Origin: Deltaproteobacteria bacterium | GTDB taxonomy: Bacteria > Desulfobacterota > DSM-4660 > Desulfatiglandales > HGW-15 | NCBI GenBank assembly: GCA_016932235.1 | Contig: JAFGDF010000302.1 | Coordinates: 1-12,969 of the forward strand | DNA: 12,969 nucleotides | Direction: 5' to 3' | Shown here: positions 388 to 12,969 of the stretch, in pieces | How positions within the stretch are numbered: the stretch's first letter is position 1 | Layout: the number at the start of each line of letters is the position of its first letter | Position numbers and translations under genes: made by a program | Notes under the pieces: model-generated | What the model was told of the DNA's origin: nothing | The model's database searches: none | Seen by the model: only the letters and a program-made list of their open reading frames with translations

Positions 388-1044
388 ATGGAATCACGCA
401 TCACAACCATCAGGAATCTCCTTTCCCTGACGGACCAGCCCGGTCTGTGGATTGTCCATACCATCAAGGAAGAGACCTTTCATCTTCTCAACCTGGATCA
501 CCCGGAGGTGGAGGCCATCATACTGTCCGAGATCGACTCGGGGGTGGATGTCTACTATGATTGCCGGTGGGAGGCCACAGAGGTCTTCTGCCGTTTTCTT
601 CTGACCTACCAGGGGCTCATTGCCCACCGATCGGCCCTGATCCTGGGGGCCGGCATCGGCCTGGAAACCCTGGTCATCGGACGCCTGTCCCCAAGTATCT
701 ACGTCAATGACCTTGCCCCGGTCGCCCTCGATCTCTGCGCCCTGCAGCTAGAAAAAAACGGCATCCACCATTACGAATGTCTGCCCGGCAGGTATGAAAC
801 CCTTCCCTGCCCTGAGGTGGACATCGTGGTGGGTTCCTACCTGATCTACAATGCAGAAACGGCCCGCACCATGCAACAATTCCTTGACCGGTGCTTCTGC
901 CCTGTACTTTTGATGAACGAGCCGCTCCAGCCCTTCAGAAGATTCCTCCGATCGACCTCCAGAGAAAAACATGATATCATCCTAGAAGACTCTATTTCCT
1001 GCGTTCTCTTTGAATCAGATCTTCCACGATCAGAGCTATTTTAG
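388..1044 (+). CDS. METTL21/METTL20-like class I SAM-dependent methyltransferase
   Basis: A 218-residue protein with a Rossmann-type methyltransferase core. Residues 60-72 (RWEATEVFCRFLL) match the W-x-A-x-x-L entry helix of the METTL21/ETF-beta lysine methyltransferase group. The SAM loop LILGAGIGL (84-92) is motif I, VNDLAP (106-111) carries the motif II acidic residue, and VDIVVGSYLIYN (144-155) corresponds to the post-motif segment usually written DxxxxxDxxY. Members of this family methylate lysines on proteins such as the electron-transfer flavoprotein beta subunit or chaperones; the substrate here cannot be read. A link to ETF would fit an acyl-CoA-oxidising organism, but that is inference. 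The ATG has no strong Shine-Dalgarno (AGACGGA lies close upstream). The gene stands alone: a terminator precedes it, a hairpin starts at the base after its stop, and the next gene is convergent. The protein is probably cytoplasmic, with no signal or membrane segment. Confidence 0.7.
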   Translation: MESRITTIRNLLSLTDQPGLWIVHTIKEETFHLLNLDHPEVEAIILSEIDSGVDVYYDCRWEATEVFCRFLLTYQGLIAHRSALILGAGIGLETLVIGRLSPSIYVNDLAPVALDLCALQLEKNGIHHYECLPGRYETLPCPEVDIVVGSYLIYNAETARTMQQFLDRCFCPVLLMNEPLQPFRRFLRSTSREKHDIILEDSISCVLFESDLPRSELF

Positions 1045-1074
1045 GATGGTCCGTTCGGGGACGTGACCATCTTT
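1045..1074 (+). terminator. Strong hairpin terminator directly after the methyltransferase stop codon
   Basis: GATGGTC (1045-1051) pairs with GACCATC (1065-1071). The helix continues inward through CGT (1052-1054) and ACG (1061-1063) with one bulged T at 1064, giving 10 bp around a TCGGGG loop. TTT follows. The hairpin begins at the first base after the TAG. It lies between convergent genes, although only the plus-strand T tract is good. Confidence 0.7.
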
Positions 1075-1206
1075 GAAGTGCTTGTCATACCATCCGCAAT
1101 ACATGGGCGTGATTCGAAAGGAGCCCTCACTCAGTGCATCTTTTCCCACACGAACGACCCGGCCTTATCATGCAGAGGCAACGATCCTTTGGGGGCCCGG
1201 TAAAAG

Positions 1207-2478
1207 TCAAAAATCAACCGATCGTTTCCCTGCGCCGATATCACTCACTCCGGCATCACGGAGAATGGGCCTTAGTGACATTGTCAATCCCAGAGCACCG
1301 GAGCATAAAGCGACCAGGATCAGGAAGACGATTCGATAGCTGCTGGTAACATCGAACACGTGTCCCGCCATAACGGGGCCTATAGCGCCGCCAATGGTGC
1401 TGATGAAGATGACGATTCCGAAAATCAGGCCATGGGCCCGGGTCCCAAACAGCCTTGCCAACAGCGGCGACATCAGGGCAAAGAATCCCCCATGGGCAAA
1501 GCCATAGGTGGCGGCAAACAAATAGAACATCCACATGCTCTTGCACAATAGCAGCCAGCAGAGGGCCGTTAACAGAAAAAGAAGGCAAATAGACAGGGCC
1601 AACTTGCCTCCGATCCTATCCCCTGCCCAACCCGTCACAAACCTGCCGACAACACTCACTCCCCCGATTGTCGCCAGAATGCTGGCCGCATCCGATGTCG
1701 AGATTCCAAGATCGATCGCATGCTGGACAATGTGCATCAGGATGGTGTAAACACAGACGAGGATGATAAAATAGACAACACAAATCGTTCCGAACTGCCT
1801 GGTGCGAACCGATTCACGAAAAGACAGCCCCGCCTCCCCCGCGTTCCCTTCGCGTGGGCTTTTTATTTCCTCATTGTCCGGGAACAGCGCCTTCTTGGCC
1901 GGGTCTCGCACCAGAAATTGGGCGAGCGATATCACAAATATCAAGTTAACTGCAGCCAGCACGGCATATGTTGTGCGCCAACCGTGGCTCCCCAGAAGCG
2001 AAGTGATGAAGATGGGCATGATCACCATGCCGACCCCGGTACCCACCTTGATGAGGCCGCTCATGGTTCCCCGCTTCTTTTCAAACCACCTGGCAATGGT
2101 GGATAGAGGGATAACTTCCGCCCCACCCATGCCGATCCCGACTACCAGGCCATAGAATACATACAGCTGCCAGACCCCATGGACCATCGTCATCAATAGA
2201 TAGCCCAAACTCAGGAAGAGGCCGCATCCGGACATTATCAGTCTCGGTCCGAAACGATCGTTCAGCTTTCCCATGAGGATGCTGACGCAACCATACACCA
2301 GGAAACTCAAAGAGGCTGCACCCGAGACGGTTGCCCTCAGCCACCCGAATTCTTTGAGAAATGGATCGAAAAATATACCGAAGCTGTTGCTTGTTCCCCA
2401 GGTAACGGCCTGGATCAAAAAGGAGGCTGCGACGATCACATAGCCGTAAAAAAAAGGTAACCTTTTGAATGTTGCCAA
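1207..2478 (-). CDS. MFS transporter, monocarboxylate/oxalate-formate antiporter type
   Basis: A 423-residue protein with twelve predicted membrane segments in two six-helix halves, separated by a charged loop at about residues 191-228 (RDPAKKALFPDNEEIK onward). The loop after helix 2 carries MFS motif A as GKLNDRFGPR (70-79). The segment ARWFEKKRGTMSGLIKVGTG (129-148) is typical of the OFA/MCT branch, which moves small carboxylates such as oxalate, formate, lactate or pyruvate by symport or antiport across the inner membrane. The exact substrate is not determinable. The start is TTG (2478-2476), supported by AAGGAGA on the coding strand at 2493-2487, eight bases upstream. The gene is monocistronic and convergent with the methyltransferase. 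About 250 nt upstream lies a decayed mobile element. Length is normal for the family and no frame defect is seen. Confidence 0.88.
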   Translation of the reverse strand: MATFKRLPFFYGYVIVAASFLIQAVTWGTSNSFGIFFDPFLKEFGWLRATVSGAASLSFLVYGCVSILMGKLNDRFGPRLIMSGCGLFLSLGYLLMTMVHGVWQLYVFYGLVVGIGMGGAEVIPLSTIARWFEKKRGTMSGLIKVGTGVGMVIMPIFITSLLGSHGWRTTYAVLAAVNLIFVISLAQFLVRDPAKKALFPDNEEIKSPREGNAGEAGLSFRESVRTRQFGTICVVYFIILVCVYTILMHIVQHAIDLGISTSDAASILATIGGVSVVGRFVTGWAGDRIGGKLALSICLLFLLTALCWLLLCKSMWMFYLFAATYGFAHGGFFALMSPLLARLFGTRAHGLIFGIVIFISTIGGAIGPVMAGHVFDVTSSYRIVFLILVALCSGALGLTMSLRPILRDAGVSDIGAGKRSVDF

Positions 2479-2735
2479 CTGTGATCTCTCCTTCTACTTC
2501 AATGCTTATCGCGGGATCTGATCAAGCATCGACCGGTATTTCTAAAACCTGAACTCAGCTTTGAGCAGAAGACATCCTCAGTCTGGGGCGCCCCGGTTTT
2601 TAACAAAGCAGCCGGTTCAAAAGACCGTTCGATCCCATGGATCCTCAGAACGATTCCGAAGGGCCTTCCCAAAAAATTGATCATGGGCAACTAACATGGG
2701 AGATTCGTTAAGTCAATGAAATCCTCAACCGTGAA

Positions 2736-2757
2736 GGCATAGGTGTCAGGCTTACAC
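2736..2757 (-). repeat. Left REP-like end of the RAYT element
   Basis: The plus strand reads GGCATAGGTGTCAGGC followed by TTACAC. Its reverse complement matches the right end at 3177-3198 in 20 of 22 positions. Each copy can form a small hairpin from GTGT and ACAC around seven loop bases, as REP sequences recognised by RAYT transposases do. Confidence 0.7.
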
Positions 2758-2809
2758 AGTTAAAAGTTAATGAAATCAAGTCTCGATCTGGAATATGGAA
2801 GTGCGTTAA

Positions 2810-3180
2810 AATTTTTTTGCTTCAACGATACTGAGTGGTCGCAGCATTATAAAACAACTAAGAGAAAAACACTTAAATAGAAAGAAGTCAAATCCTGATC
2901 TCCCATACTTCAAGCAATTCAATGAAATACCCGACATAGAGAAAATAACCAGACAGTCCTACAAAGTATTGAGTGAAGACGCGGCATTATTAATAAGAGT
3001 GCAGATTTATTTATTTCATAGATTTAGTGGAAAAAATTAAGAGAAATCGGACTGCACTTTGGCATTGGGGTATCTGGTGTTTCGCAGGCAAGCCGATGCG
3101 TTGTGTTGCAAATTAAAGACTATAAGGTACTGAAAAAACGATTGATAAAATTAATTCAGTTCTCAATTTTTCAATCGTGT
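2810..3180 (+). pseudogene. REP-associated tyrosine transposase (RAYT, TnpA_REP), C-terminal fragment, frameshifted
   Basis: Frame 2 is open from 2810, after a TAA at 2807. It encodes a RAYT-like C-terminal region with KQLREKHL, DLPYFKQF and SEDAALLIRVQIYLFHRFSG, ending at TAA 3038-3040. The match continues without a gap in frame 1 from 3037 as LREIGLHFGIGVSGVSQASR. This is the helix-turn-helix that RAYTs carry at their C terminus, and it is followed by the Lys-rich tail YKVLKKRLIK. The break lies at a run of six A (3031-3036), and one extra A would restore SGKKLREIGLHFG. RAYTs are single-strand HUH transposases acting on REP hairpins. The catalytic N-terminal half is absent here. Loss of one base in a homopolymer and the missing half mark this as a decayed copy; an assembly error could explain the frameshift but not the truncation. 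Confidence 0.75.
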
Positions 3181-3198
3181 AGGTCTGACACCTATGCC
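3177..3198 (+). repeat. Right REP-like end of the RAYT element
   Basis: GTGTAGGTCTGACACC followed by TATGCC. It is the inverted partner of 2736-2757, with two substitutions. GTGT and ACAC can pair around AGGTCTG. It overlaps the end of the transposase remnant's reading frame and the last codons of the integrase fragment on the minus strand. Confidence 0.7.
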
Positions 3199-3380
3199 CT
3201 GAGATATGGCAATAGCGCCAACCGGTCCTTGTGTCCTTTGCCACAGCGGATATGAACCCTTTTGCGCGTGGCATCAATATCACCGACTTGAAGAGATAAG
3301 GCTTCTTCTAAACGAAATTGGGCAACTATGGCAGTTATACACTGATTTGGTTTTTTCCGCCGCGTAACGGTTTCGTTCAA
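3192..3380 (-). pseudogene. Tyrosine recombinase (phage-type integrase) fragment
   Basis: The 62-codon frame contains a clear slice of the integrase catalytic domain. FRLEEALSLQVGDID (residues 22-36) is the box I region with the catalytic Arg23. The segment that follows, VHIRCGKGHKDRLALLP (42-58), contains the beta-strand lysine region GKGHKDR. The rest of the domain (H-x-x-R and the nucleophilic Tyr) is missing. The frame runs into the REP-like end at 3198-3177 and stops within it, so the gene was truncated by that element or by recombination at it. The first about 15 codons (MNETVTRRKKPNQ) do not look conserved, and the true N-terminal part of the gene is not seen upstream. The fragment resembles the single-domain integrases associated with IS91-type and integron-like elements. 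It is not functional. Confidence 0.65.
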
Positions 3381-3384
3381 AAAC

Positions 3385-3423
3385 CTCTTCCAGCGGAGCG
3401 CGAAAGCCGCGCCTGATGAAGAG
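3385..3423. repeat. GC-rich bipartite hairpin beside the integrase fragment
   Basis: CTCTTC (3385-3390) pairs with GAAGAG (3418-3423). Inside, GCGCG (3397-3401) pairs with CGCGC (3407-3411) around AAAGC. Outside, CGTT and AACG can extend the stem with a bulge. It stands out in an AT-rich neighbourhood and could be the remnant of a recombination site or a REP-like structure. An integron attC was considered, but no matching GTTRRRY/RYYYAAC pair is present. Confidence 0.4.
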
Positions 3424-3458
3424 AACGTTAATTTGATTACGTGCCAGAGAGAAAAATT

Positions 3459-3605
3459 ATGGCAAAATATCTACCTCCTATAGTCCAGGTTGTTGAAAGC
3501 GTAAAAGTTGGAGATACTGTCCGAACGACCATAAAGCTCAACGAATTGCCATCAGCAGTGAATAAATGGTTCAAACGATTACAGAATACATTAAATTCCT
3601 TCTAA
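3459..3605 (+). CDS. Small hypothetical protein, 48 residues
   Basis: ATG at 3459-3461 opens a 48-codon frame ending at TAA 3603-3605. The product begins MAKYLPPIVQVVESVKVGDT and ends WFKRLQNTLNSF. I do not recognise it. It has a plausible amino-acid mix, an alternating hydrophobic and charged pattern in the first half, and an amphipathic C-terminal helix. Only a weak purine stretch (AGAGAG) precedes the start. Its last bases overlap the stop codon of the convergent LysR gene by four nucleotides. It may be a genuine small protein, or the tail of a larger gene cut off by the adjacent mobile remnants, since the frame is open only from 3432. Confidence 0.35.
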   Translation: MAKYLPPIVQVVESVKVGDTVRTTIKLNELPSAVNKWFKRLQNTLNSF

Positions 3606-4507
3606 GGCAAATTAGCACGCTCCGCCGTTAAAGTCTGGAGGAATTGCTTGGCGAGCGAAGAAAGTAAATCGTTGTCTTTATAATAGATCCGCAAATCCAT
3701 GAATATCCTTTCAGAAGAAAGGCGCAAGGGTTTCAGTATCCCTTGTTCGAGTTCATTTTTTATGGGTAGTCGGGTTAGAAAGGATACATATTTTTTCAAA
3801 ATAACTATTTCTTTAATGAATTCAAGACCTTCACCTTCATACGATAATTCGATATCAGGGTTGAAGTCATATTTTTTAAAAACTTTTAAGACGTTGCTAC
3901 CAATAGGACCATCTTTTCCATAGAAAATAATGCGTTCATTTCTCAGTTCTTCAATCTTGACTTCGGTTCTTCTATCAAACCATTTATGACTATTTGAGAC
4001 GACCAGAAAGATCTCTTCCTTTTTAAGAAATAGGGATGACAATTCTCGACTATATCCTTTGTGAGAGGGGACAACGGCCAACTCATTTTCCAGATCAATA
4101 ACACTATCAATGATTTTGTTTGGATTTCCAACTCTGACGGCGATTTTAACCTCAGGGTTCTGTGCCTGAAAAGTAGATATGGAGGGTACTAATATATATT
4201 TGGCGCAAGTCTGAGTAGCCCCGATACGAAGGGTGTTCCTGAAAAAGTTTCCTAAATGAAATAATTCATTTTCAGCGGATTTAACCAGTTCGAATATTTT
4301 TTCCGCATATGAAAATAAAATTTTGCCTGTTTTTGTTAGCTGAAGGTTTTTCCCTGAACGCTTGAACAGTTTGACGTTGTAGTATTTTTCCAGCTCCCGG
4401 ACTTGTATACTGACAGCGGGTTGAGAGATCAACAGTTTACCGGCTGCCGTTGTAAAACTGCCGGATTTTGCCGCATAATAGAAAATTTCAAGTTTTTTAA
4501 GGTTCAA
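3602..4507 (-). CDS. LysR-type transcriptional regulator
   Basis: The 301 residues match the usual LTTR length. The N-terminal winged helix-turn-helix spans about residues 1-60, with the recognition region GSFTTAAGKLLISQPAVSIQ (16-35) followed by the RELEKYYNVKLFKRSG wing. Residues 92-295 form the periplasmic-binding-protein-like effector domain, starting at LRIGATQTCAKYILVPSIS. Such regulators bind T-N11-A dyads and switch a divergent operon on when a small ligand binds. The start is TTG (4507-4505), supported by GAGGTG at 4518-4513 five bases upstream. The gene is transcribed away from the fused TctAB gene across a 746-nt gap, the classical LTTR arrangement, so the TTT operon and the regulator itself are the likely targets. 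Its codons are AT-rich compared with the methyltransferase and the 9-12.6 kb genes, suggesting a different origin. Confidence 0.9.
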   Translation of the reverse strand: MNLKKLEIFYYAAKSGSFTTAAGKLLISQPAVSIQVRELEKYYNVKLFKRSGKNLQLTKTGKILFSYAEKIFELVKSAENELFHLGNFFRNTLRIGATQTCAKYILVPSISTFQAQNPEVKIAVRVGNPNKIIDSVIDLENELAVVPSHKGYSRELSSLFLKKEEIFLVVSNSHKWFDRRTEVKIEELRNERIIFYGKDGPIGSNVLKVFKKYDFNPDIELSYEGEGLEFIKEIVILKKYVSFLTRLPIKNELEQGILKPLRLSSERIFMDLRIYYKDNDLLSSLAKQFLQTLTAERANLP

Positions 4508-5253: not shown

Positions 5254-7323
5254 ATGGAGCAGGTTATTGGGGCTATTCATCACATGCTCACGCTTCAAGG
5301 AATATTGGTTTTTGTCGTCGGCTCCTGCACGGGCGTTATTATCGGACTTCTCCCGGGTCTTGGTCAAGGCACAGCCCTTATTTTAACCCTTCCCTTTGCT
5401 TTTGCGATGTCTCCCTTTACAGCCTTTATACTTATGGCATCGGCTTTTGGATCTTCTACTGCGGCCGGTAGCGTGACCTCCATCATGATTAATACCCCCG
5501 GCACCGTTGGAAACCTGACAACCATGATCGACGGTTATCCCATGGCAAGAAAAGGGCAGGCCGGTCGGGCCCTCGGATTATCAGGGATGAGTTCAGCGAT
5601 TGGCGGCCTTATCGGGATATTGGTTTTGATAGCCTCGATCCCACTGGCAAGAACCCTCATTTTTGCCTTCGGCTCACCGGAGTATTTCTGGAGTGTGGTT
5701 TTGGCCTTGCTGGTCATTGCAATCGCAACATCCGGTGAAGGCGTCTTTAAAGGCCTGATATCGGGTCTTTTCGGCATATTAATATCGTTTATTGGCTTTA
5801 ATAAAACAACCGGTAATACCCGATACACTTTGGATCTCTTATATCTGTGGGACGGGATAAATATTGTAGTCCTTGTCATGGGGCTTTTCGCTGTCAGCGA
5901 GCTTGTCATTTTACAGAGTGAAGGCAGAACTATAGACAGCACGGGGACTGGTCACAGCAATATTCGTCAGTCTTTAACTGGGGCGTGGGAGGCATTGAGG
6001 GCAGTAAAAACGATGTTTAGAAGTTCAGTCATTGGAACGATTATTGGAATTATCCCGGGCATTGGTGCGGCGACGGCTACTTATGTCTCTTACGCCTCGG
6101 AAAAAATGCTGGCCAAGGACAAGTCTTCTTTCGGTACCGGAAATCCTAAGGGCATTATTGCGAGTGAGGCGGCGAACAATGCAAAAGACGGAGGTTCTTT
6201 GTTACCGACTTTATTCCTGGGGATCCCCGGTGCGCCGGAAATGGCTATTTTGTTAGGGGGTTTTATTATTTTTGGGTTGCAACCCGGTCCGGAACTAGTT
6301 CTAAAGCATATGGACTTAATATGGATTATTATCTTTTCGACGACATTCAGCAACATATTGATATGCCTTTGGATAATTTTTGGGGGATCGTTTTTAAGTA
6401 GAATAACACAAATATCCATAAGCAAAGTCTTTGTTTTTGTCGTTCCGCTGTGTCTTTCCGCTGTCTATGCAACAAGTGATGATGCCTGGGACTTTATTAC
6501 GATTGCTATATTTACCGCCATCGGCATTTCGCTGAAGCGGGGGAGGTACCCCATTGCCCCGATGATTATAGGATGGGTGTTGGGACCTCATACGGAAAGG
6601 GCCCTTTATGTAACACTAAAGACCGGATATTATAATCCCCTGGCATTTTTAAGTAGTCCGCTTTCAATCATCCTGGCAGTTGTCGTAGCCTTGTTGATTC
6701 CCGCTTTGGTATTGATACCCAGGTTGTGCGCTCCTGCGGATCACAATAGAACTGCGGAAGGAATAGCTTCTTCCCATTCAGAGCGCAAGGTCAATCGGAC
6801 ATTACTAAGTGAAAATTTTGAGAGCATCGTTGCGGGTGTATTCTTAACCATCGTAACGATCATTTTTTTAGTTGGAGCTCCGGCTTATGGTCTGCCGGGG
6901 CTTATTTTTCCCGTAATAGTCGGTGGTCTTCTAATAATACTTTTGCCCTTAGTGCTCCTTTCGGAAGGTTCAGAAAGATTTTCTGAAAAAAGCAAAGTGA
7001 TTCTTGGGCCATTTCTTGGCAAAAATGAACAGGGACAAAAAACAAAAATTCATAAAATTATTATTATCCTCGTCTGGGTCTATTTATTTATTGGGGCGCT
7101 ATTCGTTTTTGGGTCTGTTATGGCGGATGCATTATTCGTTTTTTTCTTCCTGTGGCGACTGGACAAATTGAATTTGCGAATGGCGGCATGTTTCTCTATC
7201 GCAGTAACAGTCATGATCTATTTGCTTTTCGTTGTATTATTTAAATTGGAATTATGGCCGGGTATCGTGCCGACAATTATACCGGGAATAATAGGTGGGG
7301 GATCCCTTTCACCGCTCAGGTAA
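5254..7323 (+). CDS. Fused TctA-TctB permease of a tripartite tricarboxylate transporter
   Basis: A 689-residue inner-membrane protein. Residues 1 to about 490 are a complete TctA, the large multi-helix permease. Family landmarks are GLLPGLGQGTA near residue 31, the INTPGTVGNLTTMIDGYPMA segment (about 77-96) followed by GRALG, and SEAANNAKDGGSLLP with LGIPGAPEMAILLGG in the second half. A polar linker (about 491-516, ending SHSERKVNRT) joins it to a TctB-like domain from about 517 to the end, with roughly four to five hydrophobic segments and the typical GLIFPVIVGGLLIILLPLVL stretch. TctB is normally a separate small protein, and its fusion explains why no other tctB is present. TTT systems import carboxylates using the ion gradient. 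The start ATG has AGGAG nine bases upstream. The gene leads the tctAB-tctC unit and is divergent from lysR. Confidence 0.9.
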   Translation: MEQVIGAIHHMLTLQGILVFVVGSCTGVIIGLLPGLGQGTALILTLPFAFAMSPFTAFILMASAFGSSTAAGSVTSIMINTPGTVGNLTTMIDGYPMARKGQAGRALGLSGMSSAIGGLIGILVLIASIPLARTLIFAFGSPEYFWSVVLALLVIAIATSGEGVFKGLISGLFGILISFIGFNKTTGNTRYTLDLLYLWDGINIVVLVMGLFAVSELVILQSEGRTIDSTGTGHSNIRQSLTGAWEALRAVKTMFRSSVIGTIIGIIPGIGAATATYVSYASEKMLAKDKSSFGTGNPKGIIASEAANNAKDGGSLLPTLFLGIPGAPEMAILLGGFIIFGLQPGPELVLKHMDLIWIIIFSTTFSNILICLWIIFGGSFLSRITQISISKVFVFVVPLCLSAVYATSDDAWDFITIAIFTAIGISLKRGRYPIAPMIIGWVLGPHTERALYVTLKTGYYNPLAFLSSPLSIILAVVVALLIPALVLIPRLCAPADHNRTAEGIASSHSERKVNRTLLSENFESIVAGVFLTIVTIIFLVGAPAYGLPGLIFPVIVGGLLIILLPLVLLSEGSERFSEKSKVILGPFLGKNEQGQKTKIHKIIIILVWVYLFIGALFVFGSVMADALFVFFFLWRLDKLNLRMAACFSIAVTVMIYLLFVVLFKLELWPGIVPTIIPGIIGGGSLSPLR

Positions 7324-7534
7324 ATTATGAATACGCATAGGAATAAGGGTGATAAACGGAAAATTGATAATGAACCGGAACATTCGGGGCCGATTTGGGA
7401 AGGGTGCTATTCAGGCGTGGCACGTCCGGGAATGGCATCTGATATATTATTTTTCAAGCGGGGACCACCGAATTTTTTTCAATCAGGAAATTGGCGATAT
7501 TTCGAAACGACGTCAAATAATAAAAGGGGGGGAC

Positions 7535-8524
7535 ATGATGATATTCTTGCGAAATAGAGGTATTTTACCACTTTTTTTCTTTGTCATCATTGGTGTGGTT
7601 GCGATTAACTTTTCTGTTTCCGCCGCAGACTGGAAACCGGAAAAAACAATAAGGTTGATCGTGACGGATAAAGCCGGGGCCTATTATGATGCACAAGCAC
7701 GGATAATCGCCAAGGAGATGTCTTCTTTATTTGATAAACCGGTCATTGTTGAGAACCTGTCGGGGGCCGGCATGATGATGGGAACCATTAAGGTTTACCG
7801 TTCCAAGCCGGATGGATATACCATAGGATATACCTCCTCGGCGGCTCTCCTGGTAAACCAGATTTTCAAGAAGGCACAATACGATCAAAGCAAGTTTACC
7901 TATCTGGGCCAAACGCTTAATAGCTCAAAATCCCCTTCCGCTTTTATTACGACTGCAAAGAAAGGGTTGGCGAGCATCGAAGAGGTCCTGAAACTCGATA
8001 GACCGTTTCGGTTTGGGACACCCGGTCCAGGTTCCATAGGGGATATCAGTCCGAAGGCAATAAGCCACTATTTTGGATTCAAAGATCCCATTTATGTTAC
8101 TTACCCCGGACCCGAAATTGTTCCTGCAGTGATTCGCGGAGAGTGCGATGGTGCCATTATGCCGATATTCATGGCTGATCAATTTATAAAGACAGGCGAA
8201 CTTGATTTGATCATGGCCGTTGGAATGAGCCGCTATAATGAGTTCCCGGACGTAAGGTGTTTAAAGGATCTTGGACACACGGAAATTGAGAACCTTCTTC
8301 AGAACTATCACATCATTATCGCTCCTCCGGATCTTCCCGACGATATTTATGATGTGCTCAGTAAAGCTGTTTATAAGGCGGTAACAAGTGACAGTCTTAA
8401 AGAGTACCACAAGAAGGCTCTGTTCGACGGCTTAATGTACTTGCCTGCAACAGGGCCGGAAACAAAAGAAAATGTCGCGGAGTCTTTTAAAGCTTTGGAA
8501 AGCAATATCGAGATTTTGAAGTAA
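7535..8524 (+). CDS. TctC-family periplasmic solute-binding protein of the TTT system
   Basis: A 329-residue secreted receptor. The N terminus (residues 1-30, MMIFLRNRG then a hydrophobic ILPLFFFVIIGVVAI and ending FSVSAADW) is a Sec signal peptide. The mature part begins WKPEKTIRLIVTDKAG, followed by YYDAQARIIAKEM, VIVENLSGAGMMMGTIKV and SKPDGYTIGY, the standard TctC order that builds the carboxylate-binding loops. The frame is open further upstream to 7349, but those 62 codons precede the signal peptide and look noncoding. The ATG at 7535 follows an AGGGGGGGAC ribosome-binding site (7525-7534), and the adjacent ATG at 7538 is an equally good start. The gene is 211 nt downstream of tctAB. 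Ligand identity (a carboxylate or a related small acid) cannot be read from sequence. Confidence 0.9.
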   Translation: MMIFLRNRGILPLFFFVIIGVVAINFSVSAADWKPEKTIRLIVTDKAGAYYDAQARIIAKEMSSLFDKPVIVENLSGAGMMMGTIKVYRSKPDGYTIGYTSSAALLVNQIFKKAQYDQSKFTYLGQTLNSSKSPSAFITTAKKGLASIEEVLKLDRPFRFGTPGPGSIGDISPKAISHYFGFKDPIYVTYPGPEIVPAVIRGECDGAIMPIFMADQFIKTGELDLIMAVGMSRYNEFPDVRCLKDLGHTEIENLLQNYHIIIAPPDLPDDIYDVLSKAVYKAVTSDSLKEYHKKALFDGLMYLPATGPETKENVAESFKALESNIEILK

Positions 8525-8546
8525 CTTGATGACATTTCATGTCGGG

Positions 8547-8640
8547 AAGCCTCTGCTACCCGCCGTCAGATCTGCGGTTATGTGGCTTGCTTGGGATTGG
8601 AAGGTCCTTCTATTGTCAATCAGGCGGCAGAGGCTTTTTG
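8547..8640 (+). terminator. Possible terminator or attenuator after tctC
   Basis: AAGCCTCTGC (8547-8556) is perfectly complementary to GCAGAGGCTT (8627-8636). The helix extends through CGCC (8561-8564) and GGCG (8623-8626) across a four-base bulge. TTT continues after the right arm, giving a T run of five. The pair starts 22 nt after the tctC stop. The large central loop (about 58 nt, containing CAGATCTG) is unusual for a simple terminator, so a regulated structure is possible. Confidence 0.45.
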
Positions 8641-8852
8641 CAGAGGTTGAGATCTCAGGAACGTGGACCTTTATTTTGTCCTCTAAAACTTGGTCCTCTC
8701 CCGCTGGGCGGGATCTTCGAATGGCCAGGTTGGAGTCGATTGGCTCTACCGTAAAATCTTATCTGTTGCTAAAAACTCCATCTCCGGTGGAGGACCCGGA
8801 TAGGGTTTACCGATCCGGGAAGGAGGAAAGGCGAAGATTCGTCATGGCTTGA
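8640..8852 (+). pseudogene. Possible decayed C-terminal end of an Ldh-family (malate/L-lactate dehydrogenase) oxidoreductase
   Basis: One plus frame ending at TGA 8850-8852 reads, in order, GTWTFILSSKTW, ARLESIGSTVKS and SPVEDPDRVYRSGKEERRR. This spacing resembles the end of Ldh_2 proteins (G-x-FFLA..., a helix ending VKSSP, then VDRVYVPGExExRR), which often neighbour TctABC genes. The upstream body of such a gene is not recognisable in any single frame. If real, only a frameshifted remnant is left. The match is by eye and weak, and the frame could be chance. Confidence 0.22.
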
Positions 8853-9129
8853 CGTTCAAGGGAGAAAGCCTTTTCTTCCGTTCGAAGGCTCCCGGTCTAC
8901 TATTTCCAGCGCCTTATCGACGTCCCGCTTCAAATAAGCTGGGCTCCCCATTCTCATCGCGGGGGATCGGATATGGGGCTTTCTCCGTGGACAAGCTGTG
9001 AAAACAGGGCGCCCTCCGGCCGATCACTTCAAAAAGGCCTCCTCCCTTAAGTGCCCTTTCCAAAAAAATGCCGTTGCTCGTAAGTCTGAATTTAAAAAGC
9101 GTTTTTAATATATTTCAGGAGGAAGAGAT

Positions 9130-10077
9130 ATGATTTTGATTGCCGGAGGAAGTGGGTTTTTCGGATTTAATGTTGCTCGGTGTTTGGCGGAAAGAGGAGA
9201 AGAGACGTTACTCGTTCAGCGACACCCTATTCAGGCACCACCCCTCTTGGAACCATACTGGGGAAAGCAGGTCAGACAGGCGGCAGGAGATATCCTCGAT
9301 TTGTCATTTGTACTGGGTCTGGTCAAGGAGTTCTCCATAGAAAGTATCATCCATGCAGCCCACGGTACTGCCGGTGTCCGTGAGGAATACGGTTATGATC
9401 CACCCTTACACCAGCCGATAGCGGTTCAAGTTCAAGGCACATTGAATTGCCTTGAGGCAGGGCGCATCATGGATCTTCGGCGTGTTACCTTTGTAAGCTC
9501 CGTCGTGGTGTACCGTGGTTGGCCGAAGGACTGTGACATCTGGCATGAAGATGCCTACCTGCCGCCGGTGTCCTTTGCGGAAATTGGGAACAAAAAAAAG
9601 GCCGTTGAGCAGCTTCTCCTTCTTTACGTTAAAAAATACGGCCTGAGTGTGGTCAGTATCCGTGAAGGCCACAATTACGGCCCGGCATGTGATTGGCACT
9701 CGATTAACACGATGATAAGGAATGCCGTTGCCGGCGTACCATCCGACTTTCGCGGCATCCGTTCCAACCTGCGCCGGCACACGGTGTACGCAAAGGATTC
9801 CGGGGAAGGCACTTGCATGATTCATCTGGCCAAGTCCCTTGACCATTATATCTACAATCTGTCGGATGGGGAAAATCCCACGATGGAAGAGATCGCTCAA
9901 GCCATCAAAGAATTGGTGCCGGGTGCCGAAATACACTTGGGACCTCCCGCAAAAGAAAAAACCAAAAATGTTCCCGTATCCATGGAAAGGATGAAAGAGG
10001 AATTCGGATTTATTCCTTATGATGTAAAAAAGGGGGTAGCGGCTTTTATCGATTTTATTCAAAGCGGGAAATACTGA
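9130..10077 (+). CDS. NAD(P)-dependent SDR epimerase/dehydratase with an altered active site
   Basis: A 315-residue extended SDR. The nucleotide-binding turn GGSGFFG (6-12) matches GxxGxxG. GDILD (53-57) is the adenine-side acidic segment, HAAHG (75-79) the central turn, and VSSVVVYRG (122-130) carries the active-site Ser. REGHNYGP (178-185) matches the R-x-x-x-x-YGP motif. In the position where the family has YxxxK, the sequence reads IGNKK (152-156), so the general-base Tyr is Ile while Lys156 remains. The fold therefore probably binds NAD(P), but standard epimerase or dehydratase chemistry is doubtful, and another residue may serve or the reaction may differ. The ATG at 9130 has AGGAGG seven to eight bases upstream. 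The gene begins a probable operon, with only 31 nt separating it from the M24 gene. Confidence 0.85.
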   Translation: MILIAGGSGFFGFNVARCLAERGEETLLVQRHPIQAPPLLEPYWGKQVRQAAGDILDLSFVLGLVKEFSIESIIHAAHGTAGVREEYGYDPPLHQPIAVQVQGTLNCLEAGRIMDLRRVTFVSSVVVYRGWPKDCDIWHEDAYLPPVSFAEIGNKKKAVEQLLLLYVKKYGLSVVSIREGHNYGPACDWHSINTMIRNAVAGVPSDFRGIRSNLRRHTVYAKDSGEGTCMIHLAKSLDHYIYNLSDGENPTMEEIAQAIKELVPGAEIHLGPPAKEKTKNVPVSMERMKEEFGFIPYDVKKGVAAFIDFIQSGKY

Positions 10078-10108
10078 TATCCATTGATGAAAAACGGAGG
10101 GTACGATT

Positions 10109-11314
10109 GTGGGCAAATCAGGGTATCCAGGGGAAGGAAAGGTTTTGAAATTTACCCCCCAGGAGTTTGAGAGAAGACAGAATAAAATTCGTGCGGGTAT
10201 GCAGTTTCGCAATATGGAGTGTCTGGTGGTCGTGGATAGAGACATCATCCAGTATATCTCCGGCGCGGCGGGGCATACCACTGCGCATAAAGCCGCTACG
10301 GGGTCCGGTGTGCTGATATTTCCATTGGTTGAGACGCCGGTTCTTTTTGTGGTGTCCTCGTTTCATGCCGCGATGATGCAAAAGGAAAGTTCAATACCCG
10401 TAAGAGGCGTTTCTTTCAGAAAAGGCCAACCGGAAGGGGTCAGGATCAGGGATTACAGTGCTGAGATCATTGACACAATCAAAGAGTTAGGCATTGAGAA
10501 GAGGACCATAGGCCTGGCAAGCTGGAGATCTGTCCCGGCCTACCTGTTTGAGGAAATTAAGAGGGAGTTGCCATACGCCGATTTCATCTCGGCAAGTGAC
10601 CTCATGATGGAATGCCGTAGGACCAAAAGTGCGGAGGAACTGGAGTTTGTCCGAAGGGCTGCCGAATGTGCCGATGCCGGCATCCAGGCCCTTGTGGAAA
10701 CGGCTCGCCCCGGGGTCACCGAGGCGGAACTCGTTGCCGCCTGCGACTACGCGATGGTCAAGGCCGGTTCGGACCGTGGATCAATGCTCCTGCTTGGGGC
10801 GGGCCCTTTTGAAGAAATGCAAGGCGCCATCACGGAAGTGACAAAAAGTCGGAGAAAACTGAAAGAGGGTGACATCATTCTTAACGAATTATCTCCAATC
10901 TTCGAAGGCTATACCGCCCAGGTTTGTGTCCCTATCTCCATCGGCGGGCAGATCCCGCAATCCTTCAAGGATCGGATGAATGTGGATAAGGCCTTATATG
11001 AACTGGCGCTGAATGAACTGCGACAGGGGAACAGATATGGGGAAATCGATAAAAAGGTATTTGAGGCGGCTGAGAAACTTGTGCCCGGTTTTTACAAGCG
11101 GGCCTGGGCCTTGCAGCCCCATGAGATAGATCCGGCCCTGGACAGAATCACATTAGAAGAATTGAGGCCGGGAACGGTCTGGGTCAATCATCCCTGGACT
11201 GTACCGGCTTCCGGTAAAGGATACGAAGGGCATACCATCGGCAACACGGTCATTGTCACTGAGGACGAACCCGAGGTAACCAGCCGATGGCCATGTGAGA
11301 TAGTCGTTATCTGA
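10109..11314 (+). CDS. M24-family (creatinase/aminopeptidase P fold) protein lacking most metal ligands
   Basis: A 401-residue protein with a creatinase N-terminal domain (about 13-165, from LKFTPQEFERRQNKIRAGM) and a pita-bread M24 domain (about 170-400). In metalloproteases of this fold five ligands (D, D, H, E, E) bind two metals. Here the first Asp site reads ILNELSP (Glu260 instead of Asp). The second reads GYTAQVCVP (Ala270 where Asp belongs). The first Glu site reads WVNHPW (His361), and the last Glu site reads HTIGNTVIVTED (Gly/Asn). Only His338 in LQPHEIDP could correspond to the His ligand. Creatinase itself works in this fold without metal, so a metal-free C-N hydrolase or lyase is possible, and dipeptidase activity is unlikely. 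The start is GTG at 10109, with GGAGG (10096-10100) eight bases upstream. The gene is co-directional with its neighbours, 43 nt before the UPF0261 gene. No signal peptide is seen. Confidence 0.85.
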   Translation: MGKSGYPGEGKVLKFTPQEFERRQNKIRAGMQFRNMECLVVVDRDIIQYISGAAGHTTAHKAATGSGVLIFPLVETPVLFVVSSFHAAMMQKESSIPVRGVSFRKGQPEGVRIRDYSAEIIDTIKELGIEKRTIGLASWRSVPAYLFEEIKRELPYADFISASDLMMECRRTKSAEELEFVRRAAECADAGIQALVETARPGVTEAELVAACDYAMVKAGSDRGSMLLLGAGPFEEMQGAITEVTKSRRKLKEGDIILNELSPIFEGYTAQVCVPISIGGQIPQSFKDRMNVDKALYELALNELRQGNRYGEIDKKVFEAAEKLVPGFYKRAWALQPHEIDPALDRITLEELRPGTVWVNHPWTVPASGKGYEGHTIGNTVIVTEDEPEVTSRWPCEIVVI

Positions 11315-11357
11315 TCATCGAGAAGAGAGCCTGAAAAAAAGAGCACAGAGGTGAAAC

Positions 11358-12590
11358 ATGCCGAGGTCTATTGTCATTGTTGGCACCCTGGATACCAAGG
11401 GTGACCATTTCGCATATATGAAACAACTGATCGAGAAGCGAGGTCATCGGGCTATTGTCATGGATGTCGGCGTCCTTGGAGACATCCCGTTTAAACCTAC
11501 CATCAGCCGAGAGCAGGTAGCAGAGGCCAGTGGCTCAAGCCTGAGGGAGTTGCTTGATTGCCGGGAAAACGAACCAAAGTCGGTAATGGATCAAATGGCG
11601 AAGGGCGCATCCAGGTTGGTTAAGGAATTCTATCGAAAAGGTGAACTTGACGGGTTGGTTTCCGGTGGAGGCTCCATGGGGACGGCCCTTGCCCTGGAAG
11701 TCATCAAGGTATTGCCTCTTGGAGTCCCCAAGCTCATCGTGAGTACCATTGCCTATTCTACAGCCATAACACCGGACATGCTCAGCGGGGATGACCTGAT
11801 GATGGTCCCCTTGGTAGCGGGTTTGTGGGGGCTGAACAGTATGTCCAAAAGGAGCCTTCAAATGGCCGCCGGCGCGATTTCAGGCGCTGCCGAGACATAT
11901 GATGACAATCGAATCACCAAGATGAAGACCATCGGGGTAACCTCCGTTGGAGGCTCGGCGCAGGGGTATATGAACCCATTAAAACACGGTCTCGAAGAGA
12001 GAGGTTACGAGGTGGCCGTCTTTCACGGGACGGGAATGAGCGGCAGGATTTTTGAGAAAGCGATCATGGACGGTTTTATTGCTGCCAGCCTGGATCTGGT
12101 CGTGGGTGGAGAACTGATGAACTATCTTGCAGGCGGTGTCTGTTCTGCGGGGGAGCACAGACTGGAGGCATCCGGTGAGATGGGGATTCCTCAAATCGTG
12201 TCACCGGGTCGTTTGTTATTTCACTGGTGGTCGGGAGTGCCATTGCCCGATCAATACGGGAATCGCGTACGATCTTTCCATAATTCCATATTCGGCCCTG
12301 TCAGTTGCAGTTCCGACGAGGCGGCCGCGGTCGGGACATTAATGGCTGAAAAACTAAATAAGGCAAAGGGACCGACGGCGGCGGTCATTCCAACAAAACC
12401 ACCACCAAAGGCCCTTGCTGTCGGCGTCATAAAACAAGCCGAGTGGGATGCCTTTCGAGAAGCTTTTGCGGGTGACATCAATTCGGGAGTCAAGGTCGTG
12501 ATGCTGGATGGAAGTTCCGACGATCCATCCTATGTTGACACTCTTTTGGCTATATTTGATGAAATGATGCCCAGGCAGGCCATTGCCTGA
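11358..12590 (+). CDS. UPF0261 (Tm-1-like ATP-binding domain) protein
   Basis: A 410-residue protein of the UPF0261/Tm-1-like family. The N-terminal domain opens IVIVGTLDTKGDHFAYMKQL (5-24) and has the nucleotide-loop-like SGGGSMGTALALE (102-114), followed by VPKLIVSTIA (123-132). The second domain begins near residue 190 with TIGVTSVGGSAQGYMNPLKH and contains DLVVGGELMNYLAGGVCSAG (246-265), then HRLEASGEMGIPQIVSPG. Plant Tm-1 binds ATP through this domain. In bacteria the family is of unknown function and usually sits in catabolic operons. Length is normal. The ATG follows GAGGTG by five bases. The protein is cytoplasmic, with no membrane or signal segment. The partner often seen with this family, a TIM-barrel PEP-hydrolase-like protein, is not in the window but could lie further downstream. 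Confidence 0.9.
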   Translation: MPRSIVIVGTLDTKGDHFAYMKQLIEKRGHRAIVMDVGVLGDIPFKPTISREQVAEASGSSLRELLDCRENEPKSVMDQMAKGASRLVKEFYRKGELDGLVSGGGSMGTALALEVIKVLPLGVPKLIVSTIAYSTAITPDMLSGDDLMMVPLVAGLWGLNSMSKRSLQMAAGAISGAAETYDDNRITKMKTIGVTSVGGSAQGYMNPLKHGLEERGYEVAVFHGTGMSGRIFEKAIMDGFIAASLDLVVGGELMNYLAGGVCSAGEHRLEASGEMGIPQIVSPGRLLFHWWSGVPLPDQYGNRVRSFHNSIFGPVSCSSDEAAAVGTLMAEKLNKAKGPTAAVIPTKPPPKALAVGVIKQAEWDAFREAFAGDINSGVKVVMLDGSSDDPSYVDTLLAIFDEMMPRQAIA

Positions 12591-12695
12591 TCAGTAGTTG
12601 ATCGGCATTCGAAATGCGGTCCCTTCATCGCCAATCCCGGGATTACGCCGGTTCTGTTTCGAGACCTTTTAGCTCAAATTCTCGCTTGGGATCTG

Positions 12696-12715
12696 AAAGA
12701 GACAGGGCCTCTTTT
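12696..12715 (+). terminator. Weak terminator candidate between UPF0261 and the second M24 gene
   Basis: AAAGAG (12696-12701) pairs with CTCTTT (12709-12714) around ACAGGGC and runs into TTTT then CCTT. The stem is short and A-T rich, so it may only attenuate. It lies in a 246-nt gap that is much longer than the other spacings in this operon, so the following gene may have its own promoter. Confidence 0.35.
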
Positions 12716-12836
12716 CCTTCATGTTCCATTAAATAATTTTTCTTGGCTATGTGATTATTACTCAGGCCATCGAAGCCATTAGTAAAAATAAGAAATATTT
12801 TAAATAAAATTCCATTCATAATAGAAAGACACGGTC

Positions 12837-12969
12837 ATGGAAGATGAAATTTTGCAGTCTGAAAAAAAGATTTTAGGGTTTACTAAAGCTGAATGGGACC
12901 GTAGACATCAGAAAATAAGGGAACTGATGCAGTTGAGGGACATAGATTGCTTGATCATTACAGGCAACA
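12837..12969 (+). CDS. Second M24-family protein, N-terminal part (runs off the window)
   Basis: ATG at 12837 opens a frame that stays open to the window end and gives 44 residues. GFTKAEWDRRHQKIRELMQL and DIDCLIITGN match the start of a creatinase N-terminal domain. They align with residues 14-42 of the M24 protein at 10109 (FTPQEFERRQNKIRAGM, then MECLVVVD), so the two are tandem paralogues. A leader of about 14 residues (MEDEILQSEKKILG) precedes the shared part. The ribosome-binding site is weak (AGAAAGAC). Whether this copy keeps the metal ligands cannot be seen. A pair of one intact and one ligand-less M24 subunit would suggest a heteromeric enzyme. Confidence 0.75.
   Translation, partial: MEDEILQSEKKILGFTKAEWDRRHQKIRELMQLRDIDCLIITGN

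Follow-up and report, generated by a model that had tools for sequence, protein, structure and literature searches.

Pairing of a Tyr-less SDR with a metal-free M24 protein in a proposed catabolic uptake cluster of a Desulfobacterota contig

A TTT transporter is encoded in this locus ahead of an SDR, an M24 protein, a UPF0261 protein and a second M24 gene, and the question is whether these genes serve one pathway and what an SDR and an M24 protein with replaced active-site residues would do in it. The window (the whole 12,969-nucleotide stretch of DNA that was analysed) is made up of parts that belong to known families. The reading we prefer, with a probability of about one half, is a catabolic uptake cluster built around a conserved module of Tyr-less SDR and metal-free M24, with the pair probably acting in the breakdown of an imported compound.

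Genes and their spacing

The genes of the window are:

3602..4507, minus strand: LysR-type regulator (Pfam HTH_1 and LysR_substrate above cut-off; GC 0.376)
5254..7323, plus strand: TctA-TctB fusion, membrane part of the TTT transporter (Pfam TctA at residues 17-439, TctB at residues 526-667)
frame 7349..8524, plus strand: TctC, periplasmic solute-binding protein (Pfam TctC)
9130..10077, plus strand: extended SDR lacking the Tyr of YxxxK (Ile152; Ser124 and Lys156 kept)
10109..11314, plus strand: metal-free M24 protein, creatinase/ectoine-hydrolase fold (E260, Q271, R331, H361 and G378 at the ligand positions)
11358..12590, plus strand: UPF0261 (Tm-1-like) protein, a candidate ATP-dependent kinase (Pfam UPF0261 and UPF0261_C)
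12837..12969, plus strand: 5' end of a second metal-free M24 gene (44-residue reading, cut by the window end)

Pfam and, for the truncated second M24, alignment with family rows confirmed the gene list of the preliminary description, from the TctAB fusion through TctC, SDR, M24 and UPF0261 to the second M24, all on the same strand. As in other TTT (tctABC) systems, all three components are present and above the Pfam cut-off (TctA 393.5, TctB 32.0 and TctC 81.2 bits); unlike in those systems, TctA and TctB are fused into one protein of 689 residues. Judging from the sequence, TctC probably starts at 7535 or 7538, with a G-rich stretch upstream. TctC and TctAB would import a small carboxylated compound.

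The gaps between genes are 25 bp from TctAB to the TctC frame, 605 bp from TctC to the SDR, 31 bp from the SDR to M24 and 43 bp from M24 to UPF0261; by coordinates, a further 246 bp separate UPF0261 from the ATG of the second M24. GC content climbs from 0.376 in the LysR gene through 0.45 in the tct genes to 0.50-0.53 in the SDR, M24 and UPF0261 genes. The transporter had been called LysR-controlled, a label that stays putative: the LysR gene is divergent and lies 746 bp away. Scans for transcription signals gave no excess of promoter-like sites (9, versus 11.8 in shuffled sequences) or terminator-like sites (9 versus 9.7). Rfam at gathering threshold and ARAGORN returned no match within the window, which therefore offers no riboswitch clue.

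Active-site residues of the M24 protein and the SDR

The M24 protein scored above the Pfam cut-offs for Peptidase_M24 (PF00557, 71.7 bits) and Creatinase_N (PF01321, 39.2 bits). By alignment, however, the ligand positions D, D, H, E and E read E260, Q271, R331, H361 and G378, so that the five-ligand set of prolidase/aminopeptidase P is absent. The protein had been described as lacking most of its metal ligands; the loss is real, but 'most' understates it, as all five are replaced. A peptidase function was set aside, the metal ligands being absent. E260, Q271, E339, H361 and G378 were found in 60/60 near full-length family rows and R331 in 58/60 (the count excludes fragments P0055, P0057 and P0058, as well as the remoter rows, which begin at P0064). 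Because the same residues recur in all 60 rows, the ligand replacement is no chance event. Compared with each of the 12 best family rows, the start of the second M24 shows 57-68% identity.

The fold model of the M24 protein (pLDDT 87.8) had its highest VIA-align Z score, 36.4, with EutD/DoeA, and ectoine hydrolase and creatinase topped the VIA-align list. Sequence searches ranked prolidases over DoeA and creatinase, and Foldseek ranked them over creatinase. Ectoine hydrolase EutD/DoeA is about 20% identical to the window M24, which scored 84.3 and 57.4 bits against the NCBIfam models for DoeA/EutD, below their cut-offs of 575 and 613. In an alignment including DoeA, from which M24 rows of 330 residues or fewer were dropped, DoeA carries Pro, Met and Thr where the M24 family has Gln271, His361 and Gly378; among the replaced ligand positions only the Glu is common to both. 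E260 aligns with E252 of the DoeA in locus L060, a position which we take to be that of the catalytic Glu. Creatinase has Asn in the E260 column (HMM alignment only) and gene neighbours unlike those of the window M24. The gene neighbours may differ from those of ectoine hydrolase as well: UPF0261 and a Tyr-less SDR adjoin the window M24, and no doeB/eutE deacetylase gene was recognised among the eight window proteins scanned, the window ending inside the cluster.

The M24 protein would work metal-free, using Glu260, which shares a column with a DoeA Glu, together with Gln271, His361 and Glu339. It may hydrolyse or otherwise cleave a C-N bond, less likely a C-C bond, of a ring or side chain, and the second M24 gene could provide either a subunit that partners the first or an additional specificity.

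The SDR has an Epimerase domain (Pfam, 76.7 bits) and a glycine-rich nucleotide motif, GGSGFFG, at its N-terminus. The reported lack of the catalytic Tyr was borne out: the YxxxK motif is broken by Ile at position 152, with Lys156 retained. In the family alignment, Tyr was present in 2/35 rows and Lys in 35/35. The protein may bind NAD(P) and work on the same molecule as M24; its step could be a redox one that relies on another acid/base, or one of isomerase or lyase type without redox chemistry. It probably contacts the M24 protein. Where close relatives carry names in databases, M24 proteins are mostly 'Xaa-Pro aminopeptidase' or 'dipeptidase' and SDRs 'epimerase'; the residue changes at the active sites suggest, at the level of sequence, that these relatives are mis-named.

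The SDR-M24 pair in other genomes

We compared the neighbours of SDR homologues with and without the tyrosine in 18 loci, the window and 17 from genomes of one phylum, scoring the best five or fewer candidates per genome. Tyr-less SDRs directly adjoined a metal-free M24 on the same strand in 6/6 loci; Tyr-bearing homologues adjoined such an M24 in 0/12, in a table whose loci are not phylogenetically independent and include several short contigs. On the SDR tree, all Tyr-less SDRs fall on one side of a branch. This placement and the 6/6 versus 0/12 adjacency make the SDR and M24 look like a real, conserved two-gene module. The M24 tree showed no clustering of the SDR-paired M24s: pairing takes 5 changes, a figure at least equalled in lowness by 173/500 shuffles, in a tree whose L082 row includes residues ahead of its likely start. 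Metal-site loss is less complete in the paired M24s of L046 and L082, since His is kept at 331 and Glu is present at 379. The M24 of L002 is spread over two frames, and its pieces were handled separately.

By the preliminary description, absence of joint SDR, M24 and UPF0261 homologues from other genomes would count against the pathway. Its core survived this check, with SDR and metal-free M24 adjacent in 5/5 genomic loci outside the window that have a Tyr-less SDR, but UPF0261 lies near the pair only in the window (1/6 loci). TTT genes lie near the pair in 3/6 loci; for both counts, two of the six contigs span no more than 4-6 kb. Neighbours in the other loci include PF04199 cyclases, amidohydrolases and molybdenum hydroxylases. 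The M24 family itself was found at 2 loci in the genome contig set and in 1/395 (1e-60; best four or fewer candidates scored per genome), 1/85 (1e-45) and 2/46 (1e-45) whole genomes, and because these matches are few, co-occurrence was taken mostly from distant relatives. Among 60 M24 rows, 120 UPF0261 rows (those listed of 1964) and 66 SDR rows (of 75), fragments and low-ranking rows aside, 15 pairs of database matches sat on contigs of identical size that by eye have the same source. The candidate pair P0033/P0235 (size 1559) was rejected: the two genes do not fit and their sources differ.

By title and start of abstract, no description of the SDR-M24 cluster was found in the open-licence literature for UPF0261, Tm-1-like, TTT with creatinase, or M24/pseudoenzyme. 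As a compact two-gene unit that can be tested, the pairing is a starting point in the search for new chemistry.

Single pathway, alternatives and the place of UPF0261

The idea of a single pathway keeps its SDR-M24 core and is weakened at its edges. The SDR-M24 pair, with or without UPF0261, could be a catabolic unit of its own, with tct and LysR an unrelated chance neighbour upstream; we regard this as possible but on balance doubtful. The 605-bp gap, the GC step from 0.45 to 0.50-0.53 and the TTT genes in only half of the six loci favour it, as do L032, where a DctP (TRAP) gene is on the other strand from the pair, and L082, where no TTT match was present within 19 kb. Against it, the pairs of L044 and L046 immediately follow TTT genes on the same strand, and M24 genes lay within 1.5 kb of TctC above the expectation for uniform placement in three genomes (at 5 kb the excess was not significant in G002, 5/21, P 0.14; four TctC rows under cut-off were left out of the test). 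That both proteins are pseudoenzymes serving in binding, as a scaffold or in regulation, the true catalysts being encoded elsewhere, seems quite improbable: neither has its classical catalytic residues, and non-peptidase M24 proteins are a published subject, according to excerpts of the literature, but the replacement residues are themselves invariant, ectoine hydrolase and creatinase lead the VIA-align matches, and catabolic enzymes are the neighbours in other loci. At the other extreme, Tyr-less SDR and metal-free M24 might form an obligate two-protein unit for C-N or C-C cleavage, an undescribed class with both active sites rebuilt, spread mainly in uncultured bacteria, fed by TTT transporters and, in one lineage, by UPF0261-mediated activation with ATP; this is speculative, and we regard it as possible but rather doubtful.

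The nature of the substrate turns partly on UPF0261. Its two Pfam domains are above cut-off (159.9 bits N-terminal, 128.1 bits C-terminal) and the protein is below the NCBIfam cut-offs. Its PDB relatives are Tm-1 and 9mpy, which is Saro_1862 with bound acetovanillone; the other VIA-align rows mainly cover the first half of the model. R230 is kept in Tm-1 and is Pro in 9mpy. By analogy, UPF0261 may activate its substrate with ATP, because the solved relative 9mpy binds acetovanillone and is perhaps the kinase MarK; as a phosphotransferase related to Saro_1862 it would act on the imported compound or a later intermediate. An alternative built on this, which we consider unlikely, is degradation of an aromatic or aryl-keto acid, in which UPF0261 would phosphorylate a phenolic group, on the model of acetovanillone catabolism, before SDR and M24 cleave a side-chain C-C bond. 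Besides the acetovanillone in 9mpy, it draws on a passage of PMC13101465, by which acetovanillone catabolism in N. aromaticivorans begins with MarK, a single-component kinase; on UPF0261 near a PPDK_N/PEP-utilizer pair in L050, resembling HpeHI, an aromatic dikinase in a portion of PMC12167813; and on the hpa genes in the vicinity of UPF0261 in Rhizobium sp. Pop5 and Ruegeria. The Hpe, Acv and MarK pathways start with ATP-dependent activation, as portions of the same two papers have it, and share with the window the UPF0261 relative that binds acetovanillone. Their carboxylase, phosphatase and ligase genes, in contrast, were not recognised among the window genes scanned, where TTT, SDR and M24 stand instead; identity to 9mpy is just 26-27%, and equating 9mpy with MarK is an inference. 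The earlier guess of a C-N substrate gains indirectly from ectoine hydrolase as nearest structure and from the PF04199, amidohydrolase and molybdenum hydroxylase neighbours elsewhere, but the UPF0261 relative is also compatible with an aromatic or keto acid.

The UPF0261 neighbour gives an opening for connecting a poorly understood family with small-molecule activation. The portions at hand of PMC11837543, PMC12607616 and PMC13406360 contain nothing on UPF0261. Unlike the window, 5/8 annotated plasmid regions with UPF0261 have a neighbour of the PEP-hydrolase family, presumably the same as TBST (one annotated region came without a gene table). Genomes with TBST-domain genes nearly always contain UPF0261, according to a passage of PMC5028733.

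Window genes and active-site residues

The gene set of the preliminary description was confirmed in the window:

3602-4507, minus strand, LysR regulator
5254-7323, plus strand, TctAB fusion
7349-8524, plus strand, TctC
9130-10077, plus strand, SDR
10109-11314, plus strand, M24
11358-12590, plus strand, UPF0261
from 12837, plus strand, second M24, cut by the window end after 44 residues

Over these 44 residues the second M24 shares 57-68% identity with the 12 best-matching family rows. Outside the cluster lie a methyltransferase-like gene (388-1044, slightly below the Pfam cut-off) and an MFS gene (1207-2478; best NCBIfam models, under cut-off, lactate and oxalate/formate transporters).

As had been proposed, the YxxxK tyrosine is absent from the window SDR, with Ile in its place and Lys156 kept. 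This column holds Ile (22), Val (8), Asp (2), Tyr (2) or Met (1) in 35 aligned SDR rows, all 35 of which have the Lys. The first M24 had been described as lacking most metal ligands; the loss was upheld but "most" was not, as alignment to solved prolidases and to relatives puts E260, Q271, R331, H361 and G378 in the ligand columns, so that all five are gone. Among 60 near full-length family members (≥39% identity), E260, Q271, E339, H361 and G378 occur in every row and R331 in 58. Given this conservation across family rows, the replaced residues look to be under selection rather than decaying. The families are already known; what is new is that the SDR and its M24 neighbour have both lost their classical active sites, a pairing for which searches of open-licence papers listed no publication.

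The SDR-M24 pair and its neighbours

The SDR profile was searched at E 1e-30 in three genomes of interest, with 11 matches, and at E 1e-60 in sets of 395 and 46 genomes, with up to five candidates per genome scored in the 395-genome scan. Gene context was compared at 18 loci (17 distinct SDR matches plus the window). An M24 gene directly adjoins the SDR gene on the same strand in all six Tyr-less loci, window included, and in 0 of 12 Tyr-bearing loci, several of which are on short contigs (3.6-8 kb) and one of which has an M24 6 kb away (Fisher P = 5.4e-5, with loci related by descent). On a midpoint-rooted SDR tree of 22 rows, one branch (97/96) separates 8 Tyr-bearing from 14 Tyr-less proteins, a split consistent with a single Tyr change.

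The M24s paired with Tyr-less SDRs retain E260, Q271, H361 and G378, at identities to the window M24 of 28% (L032 and L044) and 24% (L046); in the M24s of L046 and L082, position 331 is still His and position 379 is Glu. They occupy three places on the M24 tree that match SDR groups (window and L001; L032 and L044; L046 and L082), interspersed with M24s of no known SDR pairing, and the paired label is not clustered (5 changes, with 173 of 500 shuffles giving no more). Since paired M24s fall in three places, the pairing is not one recent copy; several M24 lineages have it, or some lost it. Neighbouring genes at four of the loci were:

L044: TctC-TctB-TctA-PF04199 cyclase-M24-SDR, one strand
L046: TctC-M24-SDR-cyclase-amidohydrolase_2-adh_short
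L032: cyclase-M24-SDR, then molybdenum hydroxylase subunits; DctP on the opposite strand
L082: M24-SDR-Amidohydro_1; molybdenum-hydroxylase-type subunits ~1.7 kb off, opposite strand

The cluster had been read as a single pathway whose genes should recur together. This held for the SDR-M24 pair, which is well supported as the core of the cluster, and in part for the TTT genes, found near three of the six pairs (window, L044, L046), and least for UPF0261, found near the window pair only, with the contigs of L001 and L044 just 4.3 and 6.1 kb long. Also counting against a single pathway are a step in GC content (LysR 0.376; TctAB and TctC 0.45; SDR 0.50; M24 and UPF0261 0.53) and the 605-bp gap between TctC and SDR (8525-9129), which contains a 108-residue ORF. 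Promoter and terminator scans showed no signal in excess of shuffled sequence. The TTT transporter is a likely partner of SDR-M24 and UPF0261 a lineage-specific one, and a catabolic unit is a plausible reading of the cluster.

Occurrence of relatives

Reference genomes hold few close M24 relatives. A genome_contigs scan gave 2 loci, and among whole genomes they were found in 1 of 395 (cut-off 1e-60, up to four candidates per genome scored), 1 of 85 (1e-45) and 2 of 46 (1e-45). L001, from a Desulfatiglandales MAG, encodes an SDR 54% and an M24 45% identical to the window's; in this locus (413-3885) a DUF6125-like gene (under cut-off) precedes the pair and a small PAS-domain gene follows it. L002, from a Syntrophobacterales MAG, has an M24 split over two frames, plus TctC.

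Further M24, UPF0261 and SDR relatives are present in the protein database. Fifteen match pairs lie on contigs of exactly equal size and the same source, as judged by eye (6 M24/UPF0261, 4 M24/SDR, 5 UPF0261/SDR); a seventh M24/UPF0261 size coincidence was discarded because the two genes cannot fit. With sizes jittered by 10%, chance coincidences averaged 0.91, 0.58 and 0.78, respectively, and the observed 7, 4 and 5 were reached in 0, 8 and 2 of 2000 trials. A common contig does not prove adjacency of two matches.

UPF0261 from the window shares 53% identity with a protein of its family in a record named Candidatus Hodarchaeota archaeon (P0172). At L050 (8972-14583), UPF0261 adjoins three genes: a 413-residue one that matches nothing in Pfam, a PPDK_N gene and a PEP-utilizer gene. 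The latter two are arranged much like the two-component aromatic kinase HpeHI; similarly sized genes are present in L043. Two Roseobacteraceae plasmids (L061:3402-9227, L063:3357-9224) carry tctC-tctB-tctA-aldehyde dehydrogenase-UPF0261, with a class III aminotransferase and an IclR gene divergent from this run, and L063 adjoins hpa genes. On a single strand, L052 (7288-13203) carries UPF0261 and Amidohydro_2 genes together with the DctP and DctMQ genes of a TRAP transporter.

M24 genes near TctC, fold and chemistry

Counting M24 domains of any kind, 14 of 51 lie within 1.5 kb of TctC in three genomes (G001, 2/8; G002, 4/21; G492, 8/22), exceeding uniform placement in each (P = 0.002, 0.015 and 5.5e-6, by a statistic that ignores contig breaks); at 5 kb the G002 excess is not significant (P = 0.14). 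TctC expansions are very large in G002 (59 matches, 57 over cut-off) and G492 (52, 50) compared with G001 (11).

The AlphaFold model of the window M24 (pLDDT 87.8) gave its top VIA-align Z with ectoine hydrolase EutD/DoeA (36.4; rmsd 3.1, 370 residues), followed by creatinase (34.5), Xaa-Pro dipeptidase (33.1) and other M24 proteins. Foldseek also ranked EutD first, with prolidases ahead of creatinase, and sequence searches ranked prolidases first. Plasmid-encoded DoeA shares the Glu at the E260 column with the window M24 but differs in the other ligand columns; we take this Glu to be catalytic in EutD. On three proteobacterial plasmids, related M24 genes accompany eutBC and genes for ectoine uptake, or allophanate hydrolase and AtzE-family genes, or lie near a hydantoinase-family gene; these neighbours point to C-N chemistry for the wider M24 group.

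Two closely spaced M24 genes occur in L034, L040, L064 and L065, as in the window. The adjacent pairs of L034 (7308-9649) and L040 (1153-3439), which are without the usual metal ligand set, suggest M24 heterodimers. An aconitase-family gene is nearby in both loci.
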